A stretch of 64,000 nt of DNA. It comes from Agelas oroides. Lineage: Eukaryota; Porifera; Demospongiae; Agelasida; Agelasidae. The notes beneath the pieces were generated by a model. It had not been told where the DNA came from. It made no database searches and was given only the letters and a program-made list of their open reading frames with translations. The translations under genes and the position numbers were made by a program. The number at the start of each line of letters is the position of its first letter. Position 1 is the stretch's first letter. Below are positions 1 through 45,945 of this stretch, one piece after another. The stretch spans positions 25,527,674-25,591,673 of the forward strand of contig OX422184.1 in the NCBI GenBank assembly GCA_949130485.1, written 5' to 3'.

Positions 1-598
1 ACTGGTTGATCATCTAATACCTCAGGGGACATGTATGCCAGTGTCCCTGGGCACATGGTCTGGGGGGTCATGGTACTACGATTTGCATCAAAAAGCTTTG
101 CCATTCCAAAATCTGTGACCTTGGCTCTGTTTCCTGCACCAATCAGGAGAACATTGTTGCTAGAGAGGTCACGATGTATGATGTCATTTGAATGGAGGTA
201 GGCAAGGGCCAGGGCTATGTCATGGCAAATGTCCACTTGGGTATGGTAGGGGAGTGGTTCTTGAGATTGCTCCAGGAATCGGGTCAAACTTTCATCCATT
301 AACTCCATTAGGAGCACTGGCAGTCGAGTTCCTCGGTCTTGGTATGACCCTAAGTACTGTACAATGTTGGGGTGCCTTATTGCACTCAGAAAGTTGCACT
401 CTCGCTGGAATCGGCTCATGACCGCCATTGCTCCACGGTCACCAGACTGAAAGAGGGTGGGGTGGAGGATTTTACCAGCACAGAGCAGGTCATCACACAA
501 GGCCTTGTAGACAGCTCCATAGGAGCCAGTTCCGAGAGGTTCAGTTTTGATGAGTTGGACTCTTCGATATCCAAACTGTCCCTGGATTAATTGTGCCA
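1..598 (-). CDS. K1 exon 6: kinase domain, partial
   Basis: Starts at acceptor TTTGCAG|TG and runs off the window. It is open throughout and encodes the N-lobe with GTGSYG, the AGK lysine, HRDLSSNN, DFG and SPE. It aligns with 28521-29117, with one extra codon in the activation loop (CCC near 65-70, in frame). All catalytic residues in view are intact. Confidence 0.85.
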
Positions 599-9500: not shown

Positions 9501-12500
9501 GTAGACTCTCTATGTAGGGATGGCGCCGACGCGCAATATATGCAATACTTAAGCAAAAGCCGTATAACTTCACCACAAACACGCTAAAAGCTTATTTAAG
9601 CGCTCAAGCCTCCTCTTTGAGTACCTTTGTGATCAGCAAGACTCATATAAGTGGCCAAAAGCCACGCGGAAGACAGCTAAACTCAAAAGTGTGCGATAGC
9701 AAAAGTGCCATTTTTCGTATTCTTTCTTTCTTTCTTGTTACGACTTTTGTTCAAACAACGATATCTCGCAAACTGTTTAAGTACTCACCGTCATTTTAGC
9801 ACGAAACTGATGCTTATCACAGCGCGGAGCTCTACGACCACTCAGCGTCTTCATAGCTTCAAATTCACCCTGGTCAATAAAAGCCATTCACAACACTGAG
9901 GCTGCTGTCCGTTGCTTAGGACGCCATTTTCTAATTTTGTACACATGCGCACACGAAGTCTCGTTCCCAGACCAAAGACCACGGTCATTGGTCTGGAAGC
10001 GAGAGTACACAAGCGAGCGGGCATGACTGGCACGGTCTTTTCCCCCCGTGGCATTGGGCAAGGCTTATGAACACCACGTAGGTAAGGTGCTGCATTCAGC
10101 TGCCTACTTGCAGCTACACTAAAAATAGCCTACTCACAGCTTTAGTGAACTCTAAAGCTAGGATGGTCAGTTGTCAGTATGATAGTTTTCTGTGCTGCAG
10201 CTGGTCAGTCGTCATGTGATTGACAACTGAATCATGAAATTGGTTTCACAAAGTTTGGTACGGAGAGTGGTTGGCCCTTCAGCAGGTTCTAGCTGGCTAT
10301 ATTATTACATGCCTGTAACCACTACTATTTATAAAACTGTCAACGCCGTTTCAAGTTCTGGTGTTGCGGTTACACTTGAAATATTCTTCTTTGGCTTAGG
10401 TCTAACTGTTAACATCAAAAAAGTACAGAAACAAGACTTAAAAAACATTAAAAATGTGAAAAGATGTAGGGATAGCATGCCAAAAAGTATGCAAACAAGG
10501 TAGGGATAATGCATAAAAGCAAAGGTCAACATATGGCAGAGCCCCATCCCTACATCTTTTTCACACTGCAGTTGGACAGTGCATGGGGGTCTTCCTAAAA
10601 CGTACCACAAGTTCACTCCAACCTTTACTGGCAGTTCATAGCTGTAGCCTCGTTCTCAGGCCGCTTCCTAGCTCCTCCCACATGGCCTGGGAACGAGGCT
10701 ACAAGTTCACCAACTTTACTGCTGTAGCCTCGTTCTCAGGCAACTTCCTAGCTCCTCCCACATGGCATGGGAACGAGCAGCATGATCCTGTATAGCCTCG
10801 TACATAAGCTATCAGATAGCTACCAAGTAGCTCTCAAACACGCTGTCCAACTGCAGTGTGAAAAAGATGTAGGGATGGGGCTCTGCCATATGTTGACCTT
10901 TGCTTTTATGCATTATCCCTACCTTGTTTGCATACTTTTTGGCATGCTATCCCTACATCTTTTCACATTTTTAATGTTTTTTAAGTCTTTATAAACAACA
11001 ATACAATGTAATCGATCTGCACCAGTTATAAAAAATTACAGGTATTCCTTGGATGCACAATTGCAAATCACCATGGAGCAATCAAAGCTGTTCTGTTCTT
11101 TTATAACTGTAATGCACGTTACATTTCAGAAGGGAAAACATTTACAAACAACTGTTTTAACCTACAATGATTACAAGGAGCATGTTGAGAGATCTGTCAC
11201 TGCAACAAGCCTGATTTCCAGGCCCTAGCTCAGCTTTCATCACTTGCAATGCTTAGCTTTATTTGCATTGACAAACCAGGGGCTGGAGAATGAAGCTAGC
11301 ATCAATCCATATAGCTGTGACTGTGCAGGTTCGTGTCAAGACAATTTCTAGGAGGAAAAGCTAGCCCTTAAATGTTCTCCTTTAGCTTTAGAATACTACT
11401 ATACTATACAGGGGCTTATGAACTGCTACGCAAGGAGCATCAGACTAGCGTATCCATCCTATGTCGAATCACACTTCAAAACGTGCCTTATATGGATTTT
11501 GGATATTGGGGTGACACGACAAGGACTACGCTACAACCACCGCCAGTTCCACCGTCACTGTGCTTGTAGTTGAAAACAAATGGCAGAGTCTCGTAGCAGA
11601 TGGACTTCCCAAATCCCGTGGGTAGCCACAGGAATACGTCTTTACCATCGTAGATACATTTGATCGCATCCAGCTGGTCTGCTTTCAACGCGAAATCTCC
11701 CTTTCCAATACAACAAAGAGCGAACTTGAGCGATTTATCAAAGTCCTCGCTTTTACCTGCCATGTTCGCGGGATAAGCTCGAGACAGACGTGCTTCGGAG
11801 CTATACGGTAAAGATTAATGGTTCGTAAACGATGGTATACGATACCCCATGAAATCATGGGTTTTTTTGCGCATGCGCAAACAGTGGATACCAGGCCACT
11901 TTCCCCTCCTCCCACGTGGCCTGGGTACAAGGCTAGGTAGTATGGCGCTCATGAGCCTCACTTTTAAACTACACAAGAAATCTGAAGAACTGAAGATCAA
12001 TCTGTGCTTGTGTTCTGCTATTTGATTCCATTACAACTCAGAAAGATAAAGTTTGCATGTTGCACCATTACTAGCATAAGCCACCAATGTTCTGTCACAT
12101 TCAATAATTGACAGCTAACCACAAGTAGCTATTGGTGATGCAGTTATGAAGCAGTTGTACTTTAGCCTTGCTGCAATGTGACCAATGCGTGACCTGACTT
12201 TCTAACCACACATGCTATGAACAAGGGACCCGGCAGATAGCCAAACTCCATGTTTACTAGCCAATTTGCTTTACGTCCTTATCAAATATGAAATGTGCAG
12301 TACTTTCAGCCCATCAATGATTGAACAGTAAGTTTTTGACATGAATATACAACTAGCTACCACGTTACCTGCTCCTAGATGTGGGAGAAGGTGAGGGGAA
12401 GAGGAGGTCCCTCCCTGAGCTACAGCAAGTTCCAGGGTAGGAGGAGGGGAGGGAGTGTCGGAGATGGAGGGTGGACCTGTTGGGAGACAACAACATTGAT

Positions 12501-18500: not shown

Positions 18501-21500
18501 ATATGTACATGCATAACACAGGTACCTGGCATCATATATTTAAAAGAGGTGGCTAATAAACAGACAGTATTTACACATTTGTTCATATTCACACTAAGTG
18601 GCATAGCCACTAACATACCTCCAGCCTTATGATTCTCGGCTATCGTCCTTGCAAATGCTTTGTTTGCTCCCCCAGCAGGATGTCCCAGTGCCTCCACCAA
18701 CTGCCGCCAAGTTGGCCTACCAAACCTCTCCACATTGTATTTTCCCTTCAGCCAACTTGTTATCATTGAAGTTAGGCAAGCAGTAGGGTCACTCCTGTAA
18801 TCAGCTTCAATGACCATCAAGTGATCAAGATTTAGTCGCAGAGCAATTCCAATGCCCTTCCAGTTTGCGGTGACTGGAAGAAGCTCACTTAGCACATCAA
18901 AAGTGATCATCAAGATCGGAAGTGGACAAATTAAACATTTAGGTCAAGCAAAAGTTTCTCATCTATTATAACACTAGAGATGGTAGTATAGTGAGATGTC
19001 CCTAACTCAGGGGCTTCCGGTATATTTCCGGTTGGCGCGGTATGCGTAATCGGGCCACGCCATTGAGTACAATGTGGCTGCGTTTTCAGAGCTTTCCTTT
19101 GCTGTACGCTGGCAGGGAAGGCTAAGCAGAGGCTAAGTTCTACAAGTAACAGCACTAATCTAATGTCAAGTTGTGGACAATCTTGCTGAAAAATTCGACG
19201 AGTGCCCTGTCCGCTAAACCGGGGTCGTTAAGTATTGTTTGCGTACAATTGGGACCGCGAAAACTGTCCGTTATACGGAGTAGCAGGGTGTCCGCTATTC
19301 AGGGGTTGCTTAAGTATTGAAGCGAATGGAAGGACAGTCGGGACTTTCCGAATTGTCCGTTATATCGTGGGTGTCCGCTGTTGAGGGGTGTCCGTTAAGC
19401 GGGGTTCCACTGTAGGGCTCTTTAACTTCATGTTGTATTATATTAACTTCTGGTCATAGTTCGCCAGAATAATTTTCACCAAACCTTGGTAGTGTAGTCA
19501 TATTTTTGCCAATCAATCATCACCAAAACCCTGCTAACCAACTTATGAGTCCACGACTGATGTATTCCTGAGAGGATTTCACTAATTCCTGGGTTTTGCC
19601 ACACACTGGTCTTTATCTCATGTCCACTGCTTACTTGCAGCCGGAGATAAGTATAACAGTGATGTTAACTGATGTTTGCTACATATCTGGACCAAAGCAA
19701 CATTTAAATTGCCACTTAGTCCATGCAGAAGGCCATCATGTATCTGGCCAGTATGGTATAACTCACGAAGCTAAGAAGCGTAACAAGATTTGGGGTGTAG
19801 GCCCCTTTGTGTTAAGTAGTAATGAGGCTAGGCCACACCTTCAGGCTGACATCATCACTCAGGAAGAAGGGTACTAGTTATCGTGAATTTGGCCAAGGCA
19901 GCCAGACACAAAGCTTTTACTTGAATACAGGGAGCAAACAGCCTGCAGTTTTCACTCAAGGTAGAGTTCTGCCTTCAAATAACTTGCAAACTGGCTGATG
20001 TCTTGGGGCTATAAGAATAGGGCTATTTCAAATTACTAGCGTATAGCTACCTGGCCATAGAACACAATCTTATGAGGATGATGATGTAGGGGTAATAGAA
20101 ATTAAGCACCCACCTAGTGGAGTGGAATCAACTTGTGAGAGATTGATGATGCCAGGAGGACTTTGTGCAGCTAGAGGAGAAGAACAACACACAAACACAG
20201 TCAGATTAGTGTAATCAAGATCAAAGTACAGATAATGCATTTGGAACTGCACAGTACAGGGAAACAATCACTCTTGTCACCTATACACACACCTAAACCA
20301 CATGCAGTAGTCATTGTCCATAGACTAGCCAGGCATTATCAAGTGATAATGCAATAGATGGACCCTCAACAACCATCTTTGTCTTTACTGACTGCTAGTG
20401 CTAGTGCTTACTCTCTTGCATGCCCTTCGGTCGGCAGTACTTTGCCTCCAGAGTATCGGCCATTCTATATTCACCAAGACCACGACTCCTGAGAGCGTTT
20501 GTAAGAGTCGTCCAGCTGGGATTGTTACTGGTGGTCAACCAAGACACGAGCATCTCCAGGAGCTGATTTCTGGGGTCATGTGTTCTGATCATATCCAGCG
20601 TATCAATACTCACTCCGAGCAGGAGCCCCAGGCGATACCACTGTGCACGCACATCCTGAAGCTCCTCTAGCAGAAGGACAAGGTCATCCAAGGTCAGAGT
20701 CTTCCCTGGAAGATCAGGAATAACATGTACACCTGCTGAAATAACCTTAATTGAAGGGCAGTAGCACTTACAACAAAATGACTGCATTTTGCAATGTTTG
20801 TTTAGTACAGCCTGAGCGAGTAGCAAATTGCATTTAAAATGCCAACATAAAGGTGACCACACTGACATGCAGCTATTCGTCCAGTTGGACTACTATGGGT
20901 ACACAGGCATGAGCTAAGCTTCACAGTCAAACCATCAGCTAGCAGGGGAATCCCTGCTATGTATGAGCAATCATGCCAGGCGCTTACCTGAAGCAAACCT
21001 CGCCACCGTACATTCTGCTGTCTGTCACTCGCAGCCTGCTTTGTCACACAATCGTCAGACTCATACCATAGTATTATCAGAAAGTTGCCGCGCGTGCAGC
21101 CAACGCATTCAACTTAAATCGTCTTCGCTCTCGCTCTCTTTCATGCTGACCCTGGAGTCTGGCAGTAGCCCTTCCCACTCACTCTCACGGCTTAGCTGAA
21201 GTACATGTCAGGATGGACATTCAATCATCGTAAAATATTTGAATGCACTCATTTAAAAACTATGGTAAGTGGTCGGACCAAACAAGCATACACACATGCG
21301 TGCGCAATGCAGTCACGCTAGTGTGGGGCTCGCTCAGGCTCGCCCCACCCACTTACTACAGTTACAAAGTAAGGTAAGGTAAAATGGGGTAATTCTGAAT
21401 AAACTTACAAAAAAGCCTGCAAAAACCCTGTTCGCAGATATATCAACCTTTTTTTACACAGGAGGGTTCTTTAGCCTTCACACCTTCAGCAGCATAATTT

Positions 21501-24835: not shown

Positions 24836-25143
24836 CTACAGTTGACCTTCAATAGTGCTTGCAAGTTTTGATGCATCAACTAGGGGAGTTCTCAGAGCTT
24901 TGAGGAGAGTCTCCCATGTATACTCTTTAGTGCCCTTGTTCTGCCATGTGTAGAACACAGCAAGGTAGCAGGGAGTGGACTTGTGAGTCGGGACATCAGC
25001 TTCAATGCGAGTGATGTCAGCAGAATCTAGCCCCAGTCCAATCCCCACCTCCTTCCATTTCTCAGGAATCTTTGCAGCAACAAGATTCATAAGGTCCCCT
25101 AGTTCTGGAGTGGAGTGAAGCTTTCCCGGGTGCTGTGGTTGAG
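24836..25143 (-). CDS. K2 exon 10: C-terminal death domain and stop
   Basis: Begins at acceptor CCCATAG|CT and ends at TAG. Residues 933-1034 hold a death domain: LGDLMNLVAAKIPEKWKEVG, LGLDSADITRIEADV, CYLAVFYTWQNKG, TWETLLKALRTP and SKLASTIEGQL. No coding follows the stop. A polyadenylation signal was not identified with confidence. Confidence 0.8.
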
Positions 25144-28100
25144 CTATGGGAGTGAATAAATGTTATGTAATATCATTCTGTCCACAAAGAAAGGATTGTA
25201 CATGGGCAATCCTATCTGGGGTATAAACATAAGGCCTCAACCAGTGGCACACACGCTTGCACATATATATCACACACTATACCTTGTCATTGTATCTAAC
25301 ATACATCAGGTATAGCTTTGCAGAGCGTACACTAGTGGGACTGGCCATGTTTTCAATCCACATATAAATCTACCTTGTTCTGCTGGATCCAAAATGAGGT
25401 TGATGAAGTTGTATGGTGGTTTTGCTCCTGTGAGAACCACTTTATGCCTCAGTTGAACCGGTTTCTGATCTTTCCTTTCCCACTGTACAACCAGCTGACA
25501 CTCTGGTATCCACTGACCTTCTTTAAACTGGTCTACATCCTCTCTGGTGATCTGGTGAAATCCAATTCATGTTGATAATATTTTAGCGGGTTAGAGTAAT
25601 GAAGCCTTGCATGAGTACTTAATGGACTACAAATTACACACACAGGAAACCACAAGATTGTGATAATGAGATTCTTAACTCATTTGTAGCAGCTTTTGCG
25701 CATACTTCGGGCGAGATTCCAAATATCTCAGGAATGCTATCCCGATCAGAACCGGACAGGCAGCAAACGATTCTGCATGCACTAGCTTTGCGGTGACATT
25801 TTATATAAGGTAGAGGTCAAAAATTGTGCATGCTATAACAGATACGCTTGGCGTGGTGCAGGAACAGATTTTTAGCGCTATTGTTTAAAGTCTTTATAGC
25901 AAACACTCTAGCATATGTCACTGCAAATAGAATAGAAACAATTTTTAGCTTATTTTCTGACCATCACCAAGTCAGATATTTGGAATATAGAATCCTTATA
26001 CAAGCCAAGTTCTAACAATTGATTCTGCTTACTGTTGCTTCTTGATGAATTACAGACTAGATATTCAAACAGAGCAGTCTTAGAGCTTCAAAACAATCGC
26101 AATATTGCCACAAAAGAATAGGTTGGGTGTGTAAAAAAAATGCACATCTTATAACTAGTTGTTTAGCCCAGAAGGTATTTGGTAATCATGCCCCAACTTC
26201 CTTTTATTTTCCCCCTTAAATACACTTCACTAATCAGGACAAAATAGCTTGGTCCCAAGGGTGTCCACATTAGAGAGGTGATGCCTGCTACTACTGTGGT
26301 ATGCAGTAGTGGTAAAAACTATACATAATGTACACTAATCCATGCAGTAGTGGTATATACACTAATCCATGCTCTATTACTGTCCTCATGCATGCGTAAT
26401 ATGCCTAGCTTACAGTGGGGGCACTGAGTGGTGTTATTCTCCAGCCTTCTGTTGTCACCAGTCCATCTGGTGGAATGCTCAGAGTTATTTCACTGTGCTC
26501 AAACCTAACACGCAATGTGGCTTCCTGAGCAAAATGGCCATAGTGCTCTCTCACCACCTGCAATAAAAGGACAATGAGTATGAGTATATAGCAAGTTAGT
26601 ATGAGTATACAGCAAGTCCTCTTGCATTCTCTATTCTGCTATTCAATATTTCACCAAATCACTTATCACTGTCATAGGTGATACAGTTCTTGATTGTGCT
26701 ATGTTTTGTCAGTTCCACTGAAGAAAATCTATGGATCGAAATGTCTTGGCTTTGCTATTAAAATTTGTTGTCCTATGCTACAAATCAGCTCAACAATACC
26801 TACTATTACAAATGTACCGTATTCTCTGCATCAAGATCTTGTATGATGACAAAGTAGAATCTCCAGTGCATCTTCCTAATAGTATGGTACAGATGTGCAC
26901 AGTAGGACCGTGGGGTCTCCTCGCTTCCAGTCACACCAACCCCAGAGAAGTGGGTCAGCTGGATGGTACCATAGGTGCTGTTTGTAGTGAAGACTCCTTC
27001 ATCCACTTGTTTGAATCTGTATGGAAGGTCTTTCTGAGAGCACTTGGTGAAGACAAAGCTAAGGTTAGACAATGCTGCTTCATCCTCTGTGAGTGCACAG
27101 TGTTGGATTTCCAAGGTCACAGGCTTTGTGAACTTGCAGGATGCTGAGATCCAAAAGACAGGACTGAGCAAGACTGAACCTTCAGGAAGCTGAAACTGTC
27201 CAGAGAAACTCACTCTGATGTTAATCCCACACACTGTTGTGCCAGGTGGAAGACTGTCTTTGGAGACGTGAAGTCTCAGTCCATACCCAGTCCACTGAAA
27301 TGAGCCTCCTTCTGTTGAAACTGTGAACTCTGCTTCCCCAGCCACCTCGACTCCATGAACAGAGCCTGGAACGACATGAGTAAAAGACTCATTTTACATC
27401 CCGCCTTTCTCTGTTGATTTATGGTACACTGTTTGCCCACAATATTACTTTGATGCAGAAAGAGTGAACCTAATTCCCAGGATGGCCAAGACAGCCGTCA
27501 GATGACAGACTTCTATACTGAGCACTAGTCCATGATTACTACCATTTGTGTGGAGGAGACCAATGGCATAGCTAAGTCTGAGCCCACAATTCTGCTCAAA
27601 CTACAGGCTTGGTAGTCTCAACACTTGTGTCTGTGGTACTGTAATGAAAGCCTCTTCTTCTATCAATGTTGGTGAAGAATCCCTTTAGATGTTGCTAATG
27701 AGTGGTAAGGTTGGTGTAGCTAGTGAAGGGAGTGCACATTTAATTAGCCTACTGTAGCTTACACGATACTAATTAACTTGAGACCAGAAGAAGAGAACAT
27801 GTTAGGCTATGTTTTTGCTTTGAGAAAGTAACAACTAAATGCACACTAACAGGTGTGTGTCTGAAATACAAATACTGAGTGTTAGGTTACCTTTCTGTGT
27901 CACCATTGGAAATTTGCCTAACTTTCGTTGGTTTTCTTCCTGCAGCTCCTGGATTGTTTTCTGCAACCGTGCAGTTACCTGCTCACTAGCTGCCAACTGC
28001 TCTTGAAGTTGCCTCTCCCTGGCCTCAATAATTTGATCTTTATCCCGAGTAACTCCTTCATATTGTTGTTGTCTTGCAGCTAGTACTGCATCCTTCTCTT

Positions 28101-31100
28101 GAACTTGAACTTGTAGTTGCTGCTGGAGAACTCGAATTTGTTCATTCTCTTGCTGCAGTTCCTTGATTTGTCTCCCCCTGTGCACTGCCCTACTTCCCTC
28201 TTGAGCTTGCTGCACACTGTCACCATACTGGGGAGCTTCTTTCAGTTCAGCTAGGTGATGGCAGAGATCCTGAGCTGAGGGCCTGTCTTCCTCATTGTAA
28301 CTCAGACAAGAAGTAGCGATAGGGAGGAGAGGGTGGGTAGGATCGATCAGGTCAATGTGTGAATTGCGACGCTCAGTCTCAGGAACCACTTCTTGGAGCC
28401 GCCGTTTTGGGTCACGTGGGTCTTGGACCTTCTTCATGCGAGGGCTGGGGTCAGGAAACTGCCGAGTGATGATTTGTATGTCCAGTACACCAAATGAGAA
28501 AATATCCAACTTCTTGGTGTAAACTGGTAGCTCATCTAATGCCTCAGGGGACATGTATGCTTGTGTCCCTGGACACATGGTCTGGGTCATGGTACTACGA
28601 TTTGCATCAAAAAGCTTTGCCATTCCAAAATCTGTGACCTTGGCCCTGTTTCCTGCACCAATCAGGAGAACATTGTTGCTAGAGAGGTCGCGATGTATGA
28701 TGTCATTTGAGTGGAGGTAGGCAAGAGCCAGAGCTATGTCGTGGCAAATATTCACTTGAGTGTGATAGGGGAGTGGCTCTTCAGATTGTTCCAAGGATCG
28801 GGTCAAACTGTCATCCATTAACTCCATTAGGAGCACTGGCAGCCGAGTTTCTGGGTCTTGGTATGAGCCTAAGTATTGCACAATGTTAGGGTGCCTTATT
28901 GCACTCAGCACACTGCACTCTTGCTGGAATCGTATCATGATGGTCATTGCTCCAGGGTCATTGGACTGAAAGAGAGTGGGATGGAGGATTTTCCCAGCAC
29001 AGGGCAGGTCATCACACATAGCCTTGTAGACAGCACCGTAGGAGCCAGTTCCGAGAGGTTCAGTTTTTATGAGTTGGACTCTTCGGTATCCAAACTGTCC
29101 CTGGATTAATTGTGGCACTGCAAATTATGACAACAAAATTAAATGAACATCTGCATATGTAGAACATGGAGAGATAACTATTCCTCCCCTATATTGGTAA
29201 GCTAATAGGCTTACGTAACACTCAAGACATTACGATGGCAGGGAACCTCTGCACACACACAGAGAGAATCCTGTAACCCAAGGGTTCTCACTAGGCTGGT
29301 TAATTGCAGCACCATTTGGATGTGGTGAATTTAGGTAACAGCACCATTTGGATCACTCCTAAACCCTGCCCATAGCAGTTACTATCCTGGCTTCCGACTT
29401 AACATTTCAATAGCGATGTGTAGAGAGGGTGTTTCATAACTGCCTATTGTACTATGCACAGTTTGGAAGTAGATTTCTAGCGAGAACCCTTAATCTGCCA
29501 TATGTATTTGCTATGTCCATCCAGACACTCCCAAAATTGAGATTTCTTACTCTAGATTGGATTATACTTCCTATTATGCAAGCCAGTTGATCTAATGACA
29601 GTTGTCACTACCGCTTTATTTTGAAAGGGGTGGTCAGGTCATTCCAATAGATGCTACTGTAATTAGCGGGTGCAACTAGCATCAATAAATTTAACAGTCA
29701 TTGTGGCTGCTTGAACACCAAATTGCACTGCAAAAACGATACCTTAATACCTTGCTGTTCAATGGGGACGTCAGCTATACACCACGAACTGTACAGAAAC
29801 TAAGGTGAAGGCCTTCGAGGCCAAAACGTTCTGTCCATAACAGTTCTGATGCTATGTCGACTAATAAGTATATAAACAACAATACAATGTAATTGATCTA
29901 GCCTTGTTCCCAGGCCCGCCCAGCTTTCCATCGCTTGCAGTACGGAAAAGTGGGTTCACGCGCGGGGAAAACCGGAGAACAAGGCTATAATTGATCTGCA
30001 CCAGTGATAAAAGGTGCAGATATAAAAAATTACAGGTTATTCCACATTTGCAAATCACCGAGGAGCAATCAAAGCTGTTCTGTTCTTTTAGAGCTGTTCT
30101 GCACATTACATTTCAGGAGTAAAAACATTACAAACAACTTGTTTAATCTACGATGATGACAAGGAACAAGTTGAGAGATGTCACCGCAACAATGTCCCCA
30201 CTGTAGCCTCATTTCCAGGCCGAGCTCACCTTTTATCACTTGCAATGCTTAGGTTTATTTGCATTGACAAACGGGCAGGAGAATGAAGCTAGCATCACTG
30301 CATGATTGGAAACTTTTAGCTGTGAGGATGTAATGACCACCCCTTGACAATGTTCTCCTTTAGCTGTAGAATACCTTGTTCTGCGTGTTGCACCATTACT
30401 AGCGTAAGCCACCTGTTCTGTCACAATCAATAATTGTCTGACCACTAACCACAAGTACCAATCAGTGAATTCCGGAGGATGAAGTTAAGGTGCAGTTGTA
30501 CTTTAGTCTTGTGACCAATGTGTGACCTGACTTTCTAACCACACATGATCAAATGGTAAGTTTTTGATATAGATAGCTACCATGTTACCTGCTCCTAGAT
30601 GTGGGAGGTGAGGAGAAGAGGAGGTCTCTGCCTGAGCTACAGCAGGTTGCAGGGTAGGAGGAGGGGAGGGAGTGTCGGAGATGGAGGGTGGATCTGTTGG
30701 GAGACAACAACATTGATTCCAGTTAACCTTGCTTTTGTCCATAATAGTTCTAATGCTAGGTCCAATGCTCCCATTAACTATATAGATGACAATACAATGT
30801 TTTGTCACATAGTAAAGCAGGGAATTGCGAAATGACAGTACATCATTTATAAGTAAGCATTACTGATTCCAAACTCTCAGTATTACAGTATAAAGTTTAT
30901 GTACAGCATATAGATGAGGTTTAATGTAGTTAAACCAAGTTAACTGGGAGAGAGGCGGGTGCTGTGAGGTCGGGCCGAGGCGGTGCGCAGGGCCGGCCAG
31001 TGAATAATTTGATTGGAGCTTTGCAGTCTTGCTCTTGCAGCCCGCGGATGGTTACCTAGGTACATTTCGCGTCGTGCGTACCTCAGCTGCTTTGCAGTAA

Positions 31101-34100
31101 GCTGACAGCTTTCAGCGTGCCAAGTTTGCGGTCTCCTTTCAGTTGCTCCCACCCACCCGCCGCTGACTCTTTGTCCACCAGGTTGTGTAGATAACCCTGG
31201 TGTGACCATGTGCCGAGTTGGGACGGGATTGGGGTAAAAGAACCCCAATTTGGGCCCTCCAAGCGAAGTAGAAGTGGTAAAGGGGGCGTGGCCCCAATAG
31301 AGGTGTGGCATAATGCGGGCCTAGCACATGGTCAATGTGGACGTGTTCGGCGCACGCCGTGCTATGCCTGTTGGGCCACGCCCACACAAGCAAAACTCGG
31401 CACGACTTCCAAAACAAACCCAGTGGTTGATTCCCGATCGAACCAGTTAATTTTTGCAAACGCCATATCTTGGATGTTCGTATATATATATATATGTATG
31501 AACTTCTTCCACAATACCGCAACATGATTGGGCAACACTACACTGTGCAGTGGCGGATTTAGGGGGGATAAGGGGGTGCATTTACCCCCCTCTTGCGGCT
31601 AGTAGTGTATTTTTGCATACATAAGTTCGCGTATACTTAGTAAGTCTGCATAAACGTAACTACGTACACTACGGCCCACACGTCAATCTCGTTTTAGTTT
31701 TATTCATACAGTGCTCCCTCTGCATGGATGGCGAGATGCTATCAGTATGAGAGCACTTTCTGGTAGCTAAAATTTTCTTTTTTTTTCCCGCTCTTCACGC
31801 CTGCTTAGTAGCCTCTGCGGAGCGGATGACTAGATTTGGCAGTAAGTCGTCCAACTAGCTATTTCACCTCAAAACGGCGCCAGAAACGATCTCAGAAGGT
31901 CTGAAATTGAAAAACCCCCCTAGCGAGCACGCTTCACACGCTTTATTATACGCTTCGCCAAGCATAGCGATCAAGTGCACACTGGAACCCCCCTTTTCAA
32001 AATCCTAGATCCGCCACTGCTGTGCAGTGGGACAAGGCTTGTATACCCAAGCAAGACCCTCTCAATTTCTTACAAACGATGGCAGGCTTGCAAAATAAGC
32101 CGCCATCTTTTCTGACATTGTAATCACTCAAATTTTATTCCATGAGTCATTATCATATGACAATTATGATGTGGAGTCTTTTTTTTTGTTAAACAAACAA
32201 ACAAACAAACAAAGAAACAAAAAACAAGATCACGCATTATACTTGCCTCTAGTAGACTCAAGTAGTATTTACTATTTTATAATGCAGGTGGTAACGACTA
32301 CAAAGGGAACCACAAAAACCAACTAAAATTTTGTCGGTTATTGCTTTACCAGATTTGTCTTCATCTTGAGTAGTCACAGGAACTTGACTGATCTGTGGGA
32401 CACCTGTACAAAGAAAGGCATAGAGTGGCATACACCCTCACCTTATGCAGCTCACTGACACCTAATACAATTTCACAAACCTTCATGATTTGCCCTCAGA
32501 GTCTCCACTACTTTGGCATGTCCTCCCATATCCTCTACAGCTTGGGCAAGTTTGTTCCATGTGGCTTTTGGATCATGGCGAAGCCAAAAGGCTATGACTT
32601 CGATTTTGCATCGCTCGGGGTCTCCAGCATAATTAATCTCAAGTTGCTTCAGATCAGAAGTTCCAATACCAAGCTGAATACCTAGGGAGTACCAACTTCT
32701 CACTTCTTTGGTATCCTTCAGAATTTGTTTGAGAGAGATGGGAATAGCAGGGCTTTCACCTGACCAGAAATAAAGAGTTACTACATGTGAATCACAAACG
32801 TTAAGGGAAAATAATACACAGTGAGGTGTTTAGTCTCATGCTTAGCCAGATACAATCAATGAAACAAAATCTGCGTTTATATTCAGCTGGGCATGTGACT
32901 ATTATGTAAAAACAGTCCAAGTAATAGTTATAGCACAGGTGCCAGGGATTTATGGCAGTAAACAGACCGAGTCCGAGGGCGTAGCCCGAGGACGAGGTTT
33001 GTTTACTACAGCCATAAATCCCTGGCCACCTGTGCTATAATTATTATATATCCCACCTGATTGGTCCTTTGTTGTTATTATTGTAAACACATCTGTACAT
33101 GTGCAAGTGTTTACAGTAACTTTGATATTATTTACTGTCACAGAAAAATGATGTAAAATCTGTACTATAGTCTGACAATGTAGTAGACTGTAAACTAAAA
33201 ATACATGGAGAGGGAATTATGAGCCATAATTTCCCTTGTAGCCTTGAGGGGACAAATTATGACAGTTAAAGTCCACTCTGGCCTATGCATGAAGTATAGT
33301 AGGTGGGATATATTATCACATAAATGGGGTTTCTACAGAATAGCAGCTGCAGAATAGTGGAATACCAGATTCCAAGAATATGCACAGAGTGTTAGGCGCA
33401 TGTTTTGCAAGCTGCCCCCCTTTACTAAACTTCAACTTATGGCAGTTGAAGCACACATCAGCTTGGCTCAGAGAGAGTTAAAATGGTCCCATGAGTACAT
33501 GAGCAGGTGAATGCTGCAGAGATGACATGAAATGCTTGACTATGGATAACTGTTGAACTGAGAGTGTATGGATCATGGCAGTTGAGTTAAAAGTGCACAG
33601 GTGTCCTCAGAAAGAATAACGTTGCTTATTTCTGTCTGTCACACTGGTACTATACATGAATAGTAACAGCTCAGTCAATCCGCAAGCATAATTTATGTGT
33701 GCTACCTTATATGGAAGGAGTTAATTACATAATTATGCAGTGACTTCTTGCGACCACATGGAAATAGTTCTCAGCATACTAAAAGAGTTTATGTTTTTAA
33801 TACTGCAGTTCTATAATGAGCTTTCCAAGCTCCCCCACGTTTTAATAAATCATAATAAATACGACTGTAATGAAATTATGTGTGTATGAATTGAATATTG
33901 TGTGTGTGCTAAGGCTTAAATATAAATGAAGTATGATCACAATTAGATAAAGAATGGGCAAAATGGTGGCAGAGCAAAATGTTATGACAAAGTGACAAAT
34001 CAGATCAAGTGTCACCTGTGTTCATCTGAATCATCCTTGAATCTCTATAGCAGGCCATCCACTTGGATGGAAGCGAACTAACAGTGGGTAAATGGTTTGT

Positions 34101-37100
34101 GCACAAAGCCAAATTTCCCTAGATGTCTAGTGCGTCAAGGTTTGTAAAGCATCAGTGAGACAGGTGTGGTTGTAGCCTCATTCCCAGGCCACTCCCAGAG
34201 TTTATCTTGCAGCTGTCTACCAATTTTTCTCCACAGATAAAATCTGGGAGTGGACTGGGAACGAGGCTACAACCACACCTGATGCTTTACAAACCAAGGC
34301 TGGTGTGGTTGCGCGATCGGTACCAAAAGAGTGTTGTGCAGTAGAAGGGTGCGGGGAGAGATATCACATAGAGAGAGACTGCAGACACTGACTGTAGTCC
34401 GTTGGCAATCTGCAACCCCATCATCAGCAGCTTTACAGGGCACTTTGATTTCCACTACCATGTGCGGCGTGTGCATCACAGCCACAATATGGTGGACATT
34501 ACACACGATGATGTCCAAACCCCATTTACATCACCACAAACTTGAGCAGACACCGATTTTGATGGCATTTGGCGGTTTGGCCCCAAACCAAACGTAAAAA
34601 ATATTGGTGGAATATAAATTTGGCGGTGGCACCTCGCAGCGTATTACGTCATTATAAACACTGCGAGTACAGAAAATCAAAATCAGTGCATTTGGATCTG
34701 CCCTTCCAACAAACATCTTAAGCAACTACCCACCTAGTAGAGTGGAATCAACTTGTGAGAGATCGGTGGTGCCAGGAGGACTTTGTGCAGCTAGAGCAAA
34801 AGAACAACACACAAACACAGTCAGGATTAGTGTAATCAAAGATCAAAGTACAGAAATCAGAAAACCTGCCCTTTCAACATCACAGTACAGAGAAACGATC
34901 ACTCTCACCACACTTATAAACACACATAAACACTACATGCAGTAGTCATTGTCCATAGACTGCCCAGGCATTATCAGGTGAAAATGCAATAGATTGACCC
35001 TCCACCAACCATCTTTGTCTTTACTGACTGCTACAGATAGTGCTTACTCTCACGCATGTCCTCCACCGGGCAGTATTTGGTCTCCAGAGCACCGGCCAAC
35101 TGACTTGCTCCCACACTTCGACACCTGAGAGCATCTGTAAGCATCTTCCAGCTGGTATTGTCACTGGTTATCAACCAAGTCTTGAGCATAACCAGGAGCT
35201 GGTCTTTGGGGTGAACGAACTGTGCTCTGATACCCTCTAGTGTCCCAATCTTCACTTTGAGCTGGAGGCCAAGGTGGTACCATTGTGCAGACACATCCAG
35301 AACGTCCTCCATCACTTGACCAAGGTCATCCAAGGTTAGCCTGTTTCCTGGGAGATCAAGAGTGGAATAATATGTACACTGCTGAAATAACCTAAATTCA
35401 GCACAAAAGTGCAAAACCCTCGGCACATTGGGAATTGAGTATGTAATTTGGTGACTACTGGTAAAGAGCGTCAAACTATACAACAATGCCGTGTAAAGGG
35501 CAACACGAAGACGTTTTGCCTTTCATTACAATGTTACGTCATTCTTTGCCAATTTACTATAGCAGTGAAAATGCTTCATGTCGCCCTAGAGCTTATTAAT
35601 GTGCATCTCCAACAGCAAGATTAAGATGGGATGCAAGGTGCCCGGCGGAGGTTAACTCTTCCAGTCAGGACCATGGTCACTCCTAGTGTCAGGGTTAGGG
35701 GCAATTTTGCTTGCATAGGGTTAAATTGGGCTTCAGTAGCTATTAATATATTCCTAAACGCCTCAGTTCCACTCAATGGTGTCCACCAACATGACTCAAA
35801 ATGCTGCTAATTGTTCAGAGCCATAGGCTATAATGTTTTCCATTACTATTGAAATGGACAACTTTGACTATGGGGTGCTGTTTGTACCAAAACTATGCAA
35901 AACGTTATATATAAATGGGACGGTGTGTGCTTATCACGTGATACGGTGAGTTGCTGCGTCTTTAGCCACGTGTCAAGACCCTTTCGCACGAGCAAGAACG
36001 TGCATGAAGAGACTAATGTGTGTTGAACAGGGGCCTGAACGTGCAAGCCATTTCAACAGATTTGGTGAGCGCACTGTTGCTGCAAGCCCAACAGGCAACC
36101 CAACAGCTCCTGCTACAGGGCAGTTGAGCCACAGTTCAACCAACAGAAGTGACAGGTCAACACTCTAAAGGTTCAGGTAGTAGTAACAGTTAAAAATATA
36201 ACACATAGTATATAGAACAACTACCTGCTTATTTACCATGTGGTTTGTAGGATGTAGCTACTTGCCTTAGGCAATCGAGATACTCACAGCAATTTTTCTA
36301 CAGTTTGTTGGGTGGGTATACCCCCTATTCATTACATAGCCATTTGTTTACCCTGGGAGTACAGTGGCGTAGGAACCATGGGTGCGCCGGGTGCTGGTGC
36401 ACCCGTATAGCTATCTCTCTACTTACACATCTCTGCTTTCCTGCCACGTAAGAATTGATTAGCACTCAGTGACTATCAGTCAGGCATATCGACATCGGTG
36501 AGCGAGAGCGAGTCTACTGCAAGTGGTGTATATCTACACAACAACGCACTTGTATATTACAAACAGTCACATGGCTATGTTGAAATATCACATGGTATTG
36601 GCCAAAACGTACCCTGCGCAGTGGGTGACTTTACATAACATCTAGGCCTATTTTTTAAGGGAGATATGGTTTGTTGCATTATCCAATATTCATGGCTTGT
36701 ACGGGTCCAGCTGTAAGTAACGAATCCTTGGTGCACTCCTATAGATAAACATCTTCCTATGCCACTGGAGTAAGATTTCACCATAAGCTCTAGAATGTTT
36801 AGACAGTTTTGTTAAATTTACTGAACTTTGTGTGAATACAAGCATATCCTCAAGTGTCAATACCTTTAGGGGTGAACACAAAAATCATTCACATTGCCTA
36901 TAAATGGAATAGCCCATTATAGCTGCTTCACTTTCAACAGTGACGATGAATACACAATATCAAGTGTGTATCACTTTCGCTAATGTGCTTTGCCAGACCA
37001 AATTTTTTATGCACCCTATCCCTGTTGCCTCATCAAAAATCAGGGTACAGAGACTTACTAATTACAAGGTGTACGGGCATTTTGTTACTCCAATCAGATT

Positions 37101-37573
37101 TGCTGAAGTGGATAGTTTATATGTCATCACAGTATCACCGAGGCATGTGCAATTAGTAACTACAAACCACATGATAAATAAGTTGTTGTTCTATATACTA
37201 TGTGTTATATTTTTAACTGTTACTACTACCTGAACCAATGTTTACCTGTCACTTCTGTTGGCTGAATTGTGGCTCAACTTCCCTGTAGCAGGAGCTGTTG
37301 GGTTGCCTGTTGGGCTTGCTATGTTAATTTCAGTAGCTAAGGCTATAGCATGTATCTGTAGAGATCGACGGCGCTGCGCAGACCAATCGGGTGGGATATA
37401 TAACAGTGATAGCACGGTTGCTAGGGATTTATGGCATCGTAAACCGCCCTTGGGTCGGTTTACTGCCATGAATCCCTAGCAACCGTGCTATAACTATTAC
37501 ATATCCAACTAACGTATAGTTATGACCTGAAGTTACCTCCCTCTGCAATATTTTAGAACCTACTTCCAGCCAT
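24836..37573 (-). CDS. Gene K2: death-death-kinase-ZU5-UPA-death protein (10 exons, complete model)
   Basis: Proposed exons, all minus strand: 37564-37573 (coding part with ATG), 35048-35347, 34734-34790, 32481-32759, 32350-32403, 27891-29117, 26818-27365, 26414-26557, 25374-25551, 24836-25143. Every junction has GT donor and AG acceptor and the phases match; the coding total is 3,105 nt, exactly 1,034 codons plus TAG. Domain order: death (about 4-103), death (123-215), kinase (250-525), coiled coil (545-635), ZU5 (657-740), UPA-like (770-935), death (945-1034). IRAK and RIPK kinases join a kinase to one death domain; UNC5 and PIDD carry ZU5-UPA-death. This protein combines both plans. By family it should be a cytosolic adaptor kinase of an innate-immune or cell-death complex; that role is inferred. 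No signal peptide or membrane segment was seen. Exon joining is by eye, without transcript support. Confidence 0.8.
25374..25551 (-). CDS. K2 exon 9: end of UPA-like region
   Basis: From acceptor TTCACCAG|AT (phase 0) to donor CAAG|GTAGAT (phase 1); 59 residues including DQFKEGQWIPECQLVVQWE. It links the UPA-like region to the last death domain. Confidence 0.65.
26414..26557 (-). CDS. K2 exon 8: UPA-like region
   Basis: A 144-nt phase-0 exon from acceptor TATTGCAG|GT to donor CCCACT|GTAAGC, encoding 48 residues with EATLRVRFEHSEITLSIPPDG. The position between ZU5 and death domain and the beta-strand pattern suggest a UPA domain, though the sequence match is loose. Confidence 0.65.
26818..27365 (-). 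CDS. K2 exon 7: ZU5 domain and start of UPA-like region
   Basis: Runs from acceptor CGTTCCAG|GC (phase 1) to donor ACG|GTACAT (phase 0), residues 643-825. The ZU5 pattern is clear: GGSFQW, GLRLHVSKDSLPPGT, a beta-strand run including LPEGSVLLSPVFWIS, then FTKPVTLEIQH. ZU5 domains occur in ankyrin, UNC5, PIDD and ZO-1. The exon continues with YCAHLYHTIRKMHWRFYFVI, matching the start of a UPA domain. In UNC5 the ZU5 and UPA domains pack on the death domain to hold it inactive; a similar clamp is plausible here. Confidence 0.85.
27891..29117 (-). CDS. K2 exon 6: protein kinase domain plus coiled coil
   Basis: A 409-residue exon between acceptor TTTGCAG|TG and donor AAAG|GTAACC. Kinase landmarks in protein numbering: glycine loop GTGSYG 256-261, ATP-binding lysine in AGK 276, likely helix-C glutamate 300, HRDLSSNN with catalytic Asp 377 and Asn 382, DFG 396-398, and SPE (APE position) 423-425. 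All catalytic residues are present, so it should be active. HRDLxSNN and the overall pattern place it near the tyrosine-kinase-like/RIPK/IRAK kinases; the exact group is not settled. A Gln/Glu-rich coiled coil of about 90 residues follows (KELQQENEQIRVLQQQ onward) and probably drives dimerisation. The apparent first residue is GTG because this is an internal exon, not a translation start. Confidence 0.88.
29899..29987. mobile_element. TAGCCT hairpin MITE with 9-bp target duplication
   Basis: Starts TAGCCTTGTTCCCAGGC and ends GAACAAGGCTA, flanked by TAATTGATC on both sides (29890-29898, 29988-29996). The K1 intron has the single, empty site TAATCGATC near 11010. A 9-bp duplication is typical of Mutator-like elements. 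Confidence 0.8.
31548..32019. mobile_element. CAGTGGCGGAT DNA element, 472 bp
   Basis: TIRs CAGTGGCGGATTTAGG and CCTAGATCCGCCACTG, flanked by CTGTG (31543-31547, 32020-32024). The empty site is in K1 at 13104-13108. TIR type is hAT-like, but the duplication is 5 bp rather than 8. Confidence 0.8.
32350..32403 (-). CDS. K2 exon 5: linker before the kinase
   Basis: A 54-nt exon, phase 1-1, from acceptor TTTGTACAG|GT to donor TCTG|GTAAAG, encoding VPQISQVPVTTQDEDKS. It joins in phase to the kinase exon at 29117. K1 has a 66-nt exon in the same position (15860-15925). Confidence 0.6.
32481..32759 (-). CDS. K2 exon 4: death domain 2
   Basis: Bounded by acceptor CTGGTCAG|GT and donor GAAG|GTTTGT, both phase 1. 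It encodes 92 residues, including WYSLGIQLGIGTSDLKQLE, CKIEVIAFWLRH and TWNKLAQAVEDMGG, a typical death-domain helix pattern. Its K1 counterpart is 18619-18921. Confidence 0.75.
32929..33047. repeat. Palindromic ATAGCAC element, copy 1
   Basis: Arms ATAGCACAGGTGCCAGGGATTTATGG and its complement around a TTTACT centre. It shares arms and right flank (CCCACCTGATTGG) with 37411-37493. Confidence 0.65.
33050..34733. other. K2 intron between linker and death domain 2
   Basis: Shares blocks with 13831-14830 of K1. Contains the large hairpin 34173-34269. Nothing coding recognised. Confidence 0.5.
34173..34269. repeat. TAGCCTC hairpin MITE
   Basis: Arms TAGCCTCATTCCCAGGCCACTCCCAG... and CTGGGAGTGGACTGGGAACGAGGCTA. 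The palindrome extends into the flanks (GGTGTGGTTG). The K1 intron near 14515 lacks it. Confidence 0.75.
34734..34790 (-). CDS. K2 exon 3: 19-residue linker
   Basis: A 57-nt phase 1-1 exon between acceptor TTGCTCTAG|CT and donor CTAG|GTGGGT, encoding AQSPPGTTDLSQVDSTLL. It is nearly identical in K1 (20114-20170) while most flanking intron has diverged, which supports coding constraint. It is a low-complexity spacer between the first two death domains. Confidence 0.65.
   Translation of the reverse strand: MHKVLLAPPISHKLIPLY
35048..35347 (-). CDS. K2 exon 2: N-terminal death domain 1
   Basis: The exon starts at acceptor CTCCCAG|GA and ends at donor GAGA|GTAAGC, phase 1 to phase 1. It encodes about 100 residues from LTLDDLGQVMEDV to LETKYCPVEDMRE, with the six-helix death-domain pattern including W-Y-x-LGLQL, LVMLKTWL and SWKMLTDALR. 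The open frame continues upstream of the acceptor, but the polypyrimidine tract, the phase and the paralogous exon at 20412-20705 all favour this acceptor. A death domain here would mediate homotypic binding, as in the IRAK/MyD88 or FADD families. Confidence 0.75.
36362..36767. mobile_element. CAGTGGCGTAGG MITE, 406 bp
   Basis: TIRs CAGTGGCGTAGGAA and TTCCTATGCCACTG, flanked by GAGTA (36357-36361, 36768-36772). It is inserted between the arms of a larger inverted-repeat element. Confidence 0.75.
37411..37493. repeat. Palindromic ATAGCAC element, copy 2
   Basis: Arms ATAGCACGGTTGCTAGGGAT and ATCCCTAGCAACCGTGCTAT around GTAAACCGCCCTTGGGTCGG. Almost perfectly self-complementary. Confidence 0.7.
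37564..37573 (-). CDS. K2 start exon, coding part
   Basis: Minus strand reads ACAATGGCTGGAA|GTAGGT: ATG, two further codons and one base, then a donor. Joined to the phase-1 acceptor at 35347 it gives MAG-R-NRLTLDDL. The same ATG and donor are kept in K1 (22152-22161), with similar flanks. The 5' UTR lies at higher coordinates and its end is not visible. Confidence 0.55.
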
Positions 37574-44481: not shown

Positions 44482-44841
44482 ATGGTGATGTAATATTACT
44501 GCTGCATCAAGAGGGTTAATGACAGCATGTAATATTACTGCTGCACCGAGAGGGTTAATGACAGCATGTAATATTACTGCTGCACCGAGAGGGTTAATGA
44601 CAGCATGTAATATTACTGCTGCACCAAGAGGGTTGATGACAGCATGTAATATTACTGCAGCACCAAGAGGGTTAATGACAGCATGTAATATTACTGCTGC
44701 ACCAAGAGGGTTAATGACAGCATGTAATATTACTGCCGCACCAAGAGGGTTAATGACAGCATGTAATATTACTGCTGCACCAAGAGGGTTAATGACAGCA
44801 TGTAATATTACTGCAGCACCAAGAGGGTTAATGACAGCATG
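44482..44841. repeat. 39-bp minisatellite, about nine copies
   Basis: Unit reads ATGACAGCATGTAATATTAC then TGCTGCACCAAGAGGGTTA. Because 39 is a multiple of 3 the array stays open (MTACNITAAPRGL repeated) and makes a 121-codon frame, which I do not regard as a gene. Confidence 0.9.
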
Positions 44842-45945
44842 TACACAATTATGTGAATGTACACATAACCAGTCAAACCTCTGATGGTATCATGGCCACT
44901 GTGAAAATAATCCCAGAGGGGACAAGCAGTCAGATTTGACATGGTGAACTAGCGTGACAGTTTACCATTTGATCAGCGCAGAATTGTAGACAGATTTGCA
45001 GGCAGATTTGTAGGCTTGTCAGGGGATGACTCAGGGAAAGACTCAAACCTGCAACCTAGCTGGCAAAGGCTTGCATATTCTTCTAGCCCATTGATCGAGC
45101 TACCAAGTCATTTGGCAACTCAAGCCTATCATGCTGATTATGTTAACTGTTACACTCATAATTCCTCCCTGCTTAGCAGTAAACTGGGACCCAAACATTA
45201 AATCACACACGTGCAATGACAAGTGAAAGAAATCCATATCAATATTAATTTTATTATGTTTTATAATGTTCCCATTCTCTTGCACTCATTATTCCTTGCT
45301 GCCCAGATAGCCCCATAATCAATCAATGGGCTCAAGCAGGTTACCAACAAAGATGGTTTGGACAACACTAGCTAAACCAGCTGAAAAACAACAAATCAAG
45401 TTCATGAGAATTTACAAGTTTATCAAAAAAAAAATCATGTGCAGTACATACATGCATGCCTGCATACTAAAGGGATCAGGAAAGCCTATCAGTATACAAT
45501 CATTCCCTAAGACTATACGAATCACAATTCTAAAGTAAGGTCATTGTGCTGCTGTGTTTCACTGTGTGAAGAAGAGTTCACGTCGCTGTGGTGCTGTGGG
45601 GAGAGCAGATAAAGATATTAAACCACACTGATAATGCATCGAGTACACATATGACCATGAGTAGGACATAGTTATTGATGAGACTCAGGGTCGGAAATGC
45701 CAATGAAGTTGCTACACTGATCACGGATTTCTCCGGAGGCTTCTTGTTGGCTGATGTACATGTACGAGCAATAATTCAAGATTTTACCTTTTGTTGTTCA
45801 AATTTAATTCCTGCCTTGTGTAAGAGGCTGTCTACAAATGTCATGCAGTCTAGTATATTGCAATGATGCTGTTTACAAGTTTCCCTGAATTATCAAGGGC
45901 TTCATAGCCATTTCAATAGAAATAAAATCTCAACATGATAATAAA

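Follow-up and report, generated by a model that had tools for sequence, protein, structure and literature searches.

The window analysed here is a 64,000-nucleotide stretch of the genome of the sponge Agelas oroides (259 Mb, 141 contigs), covering positions 25527674-25591673 of contig OX422184.1 (C2 below). On its minus strand lies a fused gene, designated copy A, whose predicted product runs Death-Death-kinase-coiled coil-ZU5-UPA-like-Death, and we found this domain order again in three tandem copies (B, C and D) and in a fifth copy on another contig (E). Copy A reads from 37573 down to 24836 as eleven exons with standard borders and a single open frame of 1,069 codons. The ten exons within 24836-35347 have AG/GT borders and keep the frame intact, with intron phases 1,1,1,1,1,1,0,0,1, and every intron bounding exons 1-6 is in phase 1. 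The initial annotation of this locus had joined ten minus-strand exons without a phase error into 1,034 codons; its place, strand and frame agree with our model, but the exons number eleven, and the difference in length equals the 35 codons of exon 5 (30589-30693), apparently omitted earlier. The exons of copy A, with what identifies each, are:

37564..37573, minus strand: start exon ATGGCTGGAA (codons M-A-G-) with donor GTAGGT; exact recurrence at 5 places
35048..35347, minus strand: exon 1, Death domain 1; AG/GT borders, Pfam Death
34734..34790, minus strand: exon 2, 19-codon linker; AG/GT borders, 78% and 83% identity to copies B and D
32481..32759, minus strand: exon 3, Death domain 2 (A-type); the protein's best Pfam Death stretch, with another Death-2 variant here in B, C and D
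32350..32403, minus strand: exon 4, 18-codon linker; AG/GT borders, 17/17 residues the same in a partial copy at C2:25609598
30589..30693, minus strand: exon 5, Pro/Ser-rich linker of 35 codons; AG/GT borders, 86% identity at two further places in the array
27891..29117, minus strand: exon 6, protein kinase with a Gln/Glu-rich, coiled-coil-like tail; Pfam Pkinase 9e-44, catalytic motifs
26818..27365, minus strand: exon 7, ZU5 and the beginning of the UPA-like region; Pfam ZU5, AlphaFold predicted local distance difference test (pLDDT) 84, Foldseek matches to ankyrin, UNC5b and GAIN
26944..26952, minus strand: codons of His816-Phe817-Ser818, predicted autocleavage site HF|S; sequence, motif conservation, loop ahead of a strand in the model
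26414..26557, minus strand: exon 8, UPA-like region; phase 0-0 retained in A-D and E, without a Pfam UPA match
25374..25551, minus strand: exon 9, UPA-like region; 122 genome matches including itself, ratio of amino-acid to synonymous change (dN/dS) 0.15-0.37 in six copy pairs
24836..25143, minus strand: exon 10, Death domain 3 and stop; 87% identity to copy B, Pfam Death at the cut-off in A and above it in B

The ten-base start exon was at first doubtful. Together with its donor (ATGGCTGGAA|GTAGGT; ATGGCTGGAA|GTAGGTTCT), it is identical at five places in a 194-kb stretch, namely upstream of the Death-1 exon in copies A, B, C and D and upstream of one further Death-1 exon, and these recurrences lie within 76-174 alignable bases. 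Given this identical recurrence upstream of Death-1 exons, all four tandem copies included, we consider the start exon credible, and the ATG placed earlier at 37573 stands.

A Pfam scan of the copy A protein from exon 1 on returned the kinase, one ZU5 stretch (2.7e-8) and three Death stretches (protein E-value 4.4e-16), and no leucine-rich repeat (LRR) was found at E up to 1. Scored alone, the last Death domain reaches 22.6 bits in copy A, which equals the cut-off, and 28.6 bits in copy B. Ten exons (Death-1, Death-2 and last-Death) combined into a profile matched FADD (5.5e-7), PIDD (0.0019) and RIPK1 (0.0023) in the PDB. The kinase carries a glycine loop, Lys311, His410-Arg-Asp, Asp431-Phe-Gly and SPE, and with these catalytic motifs it should be active. 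Among its best matches in the PDB, IRAK4 makes up the majority (E 1.6e-25), with one EGFR chain, matched twice, scoring higher; in the gatekeeper column of the alignment, copy A has Met opposite the Tyr of IRAK4. The coiled coil was called from the Gln/Glu-rich sequence alone.

Part of copy B lies within the window, and copies C and D lie on the same contig:

22152-22161, 20412-20705, 20114-20170 and 18619-18873, minus strand: copy B start exon, Death-1, exon 2 and Death-2, the last assumed to be a shortened exon
12369..12476, minus strand: copy B exon 5 (linker)
1..598, minus strand: 5' part of the copy B kinase exon, the remainder lying beyond the window
C2, 25594-25608 kb: copy C
C2, 25665-25677 kb: copy D

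From ATG to stop, the models give 1,069 residues for A, 1,044 for B (1,053 via an alternative acceptor), 1,034 for C and 1,028 for D, and kinase, ZU5, exon 8 and exon 9 follow in the same order and phases in all four. Copy E (L022, contig C11) has all the elements in sequence on a single strand: Death, Death, kinase-coil, ZU5, UPA-like exons and finally a Death-like end; its phases match from the kinase to the beginning of exon 9, and its ZU5 is 43-45% identical. The two front Death domains of copy E are Pfam matches, and the last is 44.6% identical to exon 10, with no Pfam match. Genome searches scored the best 102 of 790 candidates for the kinase exon (copy A included, and some of the matches broken), the best 150 of 870 for Death and the best 150 of 175 for the ZU5 exon, so that the sizes of these three families are lower bounds and a pair of ZU5 with a more distant kinase could have escaped. 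Among the 102 kinase-exon matches listed, five have a ZU5 place within 1.8 kb, and these are the five fused copies; for the other 97, the closest listed ZU5 place is 57 kb off. The pairing of kinase and ZU5 exceeds chance. Amino-acid change is restrained on both sides of the kinase-ZU5 junction: across six copy pairs in either case, dN/dS was 0.15-0.34 in exon 6 and 0.25-0.28 in exons 7-9 taken together. Synonymous change exceeded amino-acid change in 25/25 exon-by-pair comparisons (omega 0.15-0.49). That the kinase-ZU5 fusion is a gene family of one genome is firm; how it works is an educated guess.

The kinase-ZU5-UPA-like core is constant across the copies, unlike the Death ends, which vary. 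In Death-2, copy B shares 81-82% identity with C and D, and B, C and D are just 25-30% identical to A; the last Death domain of A and B is nearly shared (exon 10 above), C has a different kind (~26% to A or B), and that of D resembles the one in a ZU5 gene elsewhere in the genome, L026 (54%). The phase-1 introns around exons 1-6 would make swaps of Death exons easy. The array holds further pieces of this kind. A possible truncated sixth copy would comprise a start exon plus Death-1 (25659-25657 kb), followed by 24 kinase-exon residues at 25648867. Seven Death-1-like exons, several of them near identical, stand in a row at C2:25614321-25638970 (L013-L015), with neither a kinase match nor an exact start exon in that row, and beneath it is an exon 3-4-5 set at 25609954-25608846.

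The ZU5 domain ends in His-Phe-Ser in copies A-E. We sampled 48 of the 150 listed ZU5 places other than that of the window (B-E counted in; chiefly better matches, non-random), and found HFS in 37/48 and x-Phe-Ser in 44/48, the remainder being HFC (2), HFY (1) and QLS (1). In a 48-row alignment (the window and 47 loci, L030 excluded), the Phe and the Ser of the motif are each at least 90% conserved. An AlphaFold model of exon 7 made from these 48 rows had a pLDDT of 84.1, and of ~91 up to residue 150; an earlier run with 9 rows (pLDDT 51) was set aside. The model passes from a strand at 131-136 through HFS at 138-140 into a strand at 141-147, which places HFS in the loop ahead of a late strand, the right loop for a cleavage motif. 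According to published accounts, CARD8 is cut in a loop ahead of a long strand, and PIDD, with the sequence HFS, cuts itself after each ZU5 (D'Osualdo et al., PMC3210808). Ten Foldseek matches to the model at E <= 0.001 were ankyrins, UNC5b, CD97 and BAI2 (4d8o 4.4e-6, 3g5b 1e-5, CD97 2.8e-5, BAI2 HormR-GAIN 5.4e-4), with TM-scores over the query of 0.50-0.54 for the top ten and 0.52-0.53 for 4d8o and 3g5b. The GAIN domains of adhesion G-protein-coupled receptors are mostly self-cleaving. The model suggests that exon 7 has the ZU5 fold of the UNC5/PIDD/ankyrin ZU5-UPA-death domain supermodule.

The region that starts with the HFS serine and closes with exon 9 is 150 residues long, and UPA constructs comprise 152 residues in NLRP1 and 150 in CARD8 (S297-P446; PMC7794386). 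We call the region UPA-like from position and length alone. Exon 7 on its own matched nothing among PDB sequences up to E 1, and a more distant ZU5 gene (L030), tried as a bridge to known UPA, gave just ankyrin-1 ZU5 (E 0.16 and 0.67). The domain order proposed earlier recurs in B-E, and the profile searches suggested with it recovered three Death domains, Pkinase and ZU5 in the spliced protein, whereas UPA found no Pfam counterpart. That proposal had covered neither the autocleavage motif nor the four sister copies nor the Kelch relatives described below.

Outside the five fused copies, identity reaches 85-86% for the kinase and 72% for ZU5 among the matches listed, and the kinase family spans 59-86% identity over 24 loci, fused copy E included. 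Three kinase relatives (L023-L025) are single frames running on into a Kelch-like tail, which is broken in L024 and L025; Pfam finds Kelch repeats in L023, the only one run. Each of four near ZU5 relatives (L026-L029) combines ZU5 and UPA-like exons with a Kelch-like and a Death-like frame, and their surroundings showed no kinase frame. In L026, again the only one run, Pfam found Kelch, gave no match for the middle Death-like frame and scored the last Death under the cut-off. L026 and L029 each gave a match for a last Death-like frame; in L027 and L028, the 0.5-0.9 kb past exon 9 gave none. The linker from the Death-like frame to ZU5 in L026 also carries a tandem protein repeat, 'QNSPDCQEVAV' (6500-6990), with similar pieces in L027 and L029. 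The same genome thus has Kinase-coil-Kelch and Kelch-(Death-like)-ZU5 genes, each related to one half of copy A, and none of those read joins kinase and ZU5. Where Kelch repeats follow the coil in the former, copy A has ZU5 instead. At the coil end, 8/23 non-fused kinase loci show a junction like KLTLSWK, the rest not showing it in the piece fetched. The fused copies read AAAG|GTAA there, and GNLTLSI (A) and GKLTLSVY (C) can still be read at the start of the intron; given these remnants, we infer that a kinase-Kelch gene's coding junction gave rise to the donor of the fused copies.

In the ZU5 tree, A-D form one clade (100/98) and E falls in another (100/99), beside C7:2760938 (weak support, 94/16), a locus with Kelch plus a Death-like frame whose 2 kb upstream hold no kinase match. 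A single origin of the joining was considered and rejected: the tree forces at least two label changes, and 0/200 bootstrap trees have one. This split suggests that the joining occurred twice, or that one half was overwritten through gene conversion. The kinase tree (27 of 28 sequences; L089, with <250 residues, excluded) does not unite A-D, and its five fused rows need four changes, which shuffled labels equal in 124/500 cases; its well-supported branches force just one change, so that the number of joinings is not decided by this tree. Gene conversion could mimic the result of either tree.

We put at about 60% the probability that copy A is one gene encoding one 1,069-residue Death-Death-kinase-coiled coil-ZU5-UPA-like-Death chain, read from a single mRNA, whose ZU5 cuts itself at HF|S. 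On folding, ZU5 would cut its own chain at His816-Phe817|Ser818, in the manner of PIDD (HFS) and of NLRP1 and CARD8 (SFS). SFS cleavage in the latter two leaves fragments that remain associated (PMC3210808, PMC7794386). Likewise, a 91-kDa Death-Death-kinase-ZU5 part may remain bound to a 29-kDa UPA-Death part and keep it silent. Docking of the N-terminal Death domains to death-domain assemblies would bring kinases together and so activate them; once the N-terminal part is lost, unfolded or phosphorylated, UPA-Death would be freed to polymerise and recruit death-domain adaptors. The chain may serve in immunity or cell death, and the earlier suggestion of a receptor-proximal adaptor, kinase and self-inhibited death-domain platform in one is plausible.

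Several observations weigh against parts of this reading. UPA has no Pfam match in the copy A protein, in 7/9 ZU5-UPA models at E up to 10 (D and L027 excluded) or in a genome scan run without a positive control, and a ZU5-UPA profile matched solely ZO-1 ZU5 among PDB sequences (E 0.08 and 0.25). Across the ten best Foldseek matches the root-mean-square deviation is 4.4-12, the matched BAI2 entry is in the uncleaved state, and no NLRP1, CARD8 or PIDD structure appears among the best 50 rows listed. The residue 18 before the Ser, which in an ungapped reading is the column of the CARD8 helper Glu, is Glu in A and Gly in B, C and D. Death-2 of B, C and D has no Pfam match, and the last Death domain scores below the cut-off in C (22.2 bits) and far below it in D (12.7). 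Exon 9 of copy D is preceded by AC, not AG, a non-standard acceptor, and Death-2 of copy B is readable only as a shortened exon; with such flaws, some copies may be decaying. An HFS loop can also persist without cleavage, and 11/48 sampled exons deviate from the motif.

Alternatively, copy A could be one gene without self-cutting, its tail being a closed, UNC5-like regulatory module opened via phosphorylation by its own kinase. The best fold matches are ankyrin-B and UNC5b, neither of which is known to be cleaved, and a kinase and such a module in one chain invite phosphorylation control. Conservation of the motif Phe and Ser, and of HFS as a whole, argues the other way, as does the Leu that UNC5b carries where the Phe stands (PMC3210808), and we regard an uncleaved module as rather doubtful. 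It is quite improbable that two adjacent genes, Death-Death-kinase-coil and ZU5-UPA-Death, were joined only by eye. Each half does occur without the other, kinase-coil in the Kelch-type genes and the ZU5-UPA-like exons after Kelch and Death-like frames with no kinase seen. Against two genes, however, the kinase-ZU5 junction keeps its donor, acceptor and phase in A-D and E, exon 7 has no Met ahead of the ZU5 core in A-D, the pair is adjacent at all five places, and the intron separating the two exons in copy C is 109 bp. Comparison of the copies thus bears out the initial view of a single gene, as far as genomic sequence can tell. Least likely, in our judgement, is a non-functional chimera or decaying cluster formed when a kinase gene copy landed before a ZU5 gene: kinase and coil share one exon as in the Kelch-type frames, retroelement frames lie within a copy B intron, and B and D have the flaws noted above, but dN/dS is well under 1 on both sides of the junction, and the fifth copy has the same structure at a ZU5 identity of 43-45%.

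Copy A resembles several known systems in part. It shares with PIDD1 a ZU5 ending in HFS, the position of the UPA-like region and a C-terminal Death domain; PIDD1 differs in having LRRs, two ZU5, Death and no kinase (PMC9573974), where copy A has two Death domains, kinase and coil before a single ZU5. A ZU5, cleavage motif, UPA-sized region and death-fold domain are likewise found in the FIIND (ZU5-UPA) proteins NLRP1 and CARD8, which have CARD and SFS instead of Death and HFS. The N-termini of NLRP1 and CARD8 are unlike that of copy A. A further likeness to the UNC5/PIDD/ankyrin supermodule is the C-terminal Death domain, at the cut-off in Pfam (22.6 bits). IRAK proteins have Death before the kinase and a tyrosine gatekeeper; copy A too has Death, then an active-type kinase by Pfam and motifs, but differs in its two Death domains, ZU5-UPA-Death tail and Met gatekeeper. 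RIPK1 has an N-terminal kinase, a RHIM and a C-terminal Death domain, and kinase then Death in one chain is also seen in copy A, where, however, the kinase is not N-terminal, ZU5-UPA stands between the two, and two extra Death domains lie in front.

Kinase and ZU5 in one chain are already known in a different order from amphioxus LOC118406448, tabulated as LRR-ZU5-kinase with 1,250 aa (PMC9573974), where ZU5 precedes the kinase, LRRs are present and no Death is listed. An expansion of ZU5 proteins specific to sponges, perhaps serving defence, was noted in 2012 (PMC3482391), ZU5/FIIND autoproteolysis has been predicted for TRADD-N proteins, with great domain diversity in Amphimedon (PMC8195603), and NACHT-ZU5 genes are described from early animals (PMC12909245). 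In open-licence literature, with subscription papers and protein databases mostly outside this scope, we found no description of the Death-Death-kinase-coil-ZU5-UPA-like-Death order or of the combination of domains in copy A, which is in keeping with the earlier remark that no described protein was known to join all parts.

If this reading of copy A is true, one chain would tie a death-domain kinase (Myddosome/RIP logic) to an autoproteolytic ZU5 trigger (PIDDosome/NLRP1 logic), two routes that, to our knowledge, vertebrates keep in separate proteins. This would raise the question of whether the kinase controls UPA-Death release or loss of the kinase part causes it. It would also suggest that this animal draws on an autocleaving ZU5 module whose front ends are interchangeable; such proteins would diversify through swapped Death exons and repeated joining of a kinase. 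By analogy with the integrated decoys of plant immune receptors, we can further imagine a self-cleaving ZU5-UPA-Death chassis with plug-in N-terminal sensors, Kelch and Death-like in many genes and Death-Death-kinase apparently twice; the kinase would serve as bait, mimicking an IRAK/RIP-type kinase as an integrated decoy, and a pathogen degrading or cutting it would free the UPA-Death trigger. We offer this animal counterpart as speculation, and consider it unlikely.

Other features of the window include the Ty3/gypsy-like retroelement in the copy B intron (861-4645, plus strand), with gag-pol-like frames in which a zinc knuckle, reverse transcriptase and integrase were recognised by eye, and a 176-residue frame at 14907-15437 (minus strand). 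A 39-bp tandem repeat at 44488-44843 (9.1 copies, 96% matches) has one open frame per strand, and at 48454-50883 (minus strand) an 810-residue open frame matches Pfam Cu-oxidase, Cu-oxidase_2 and Cu-oxidase_3, as in a laccase-like multicopper oxidase.

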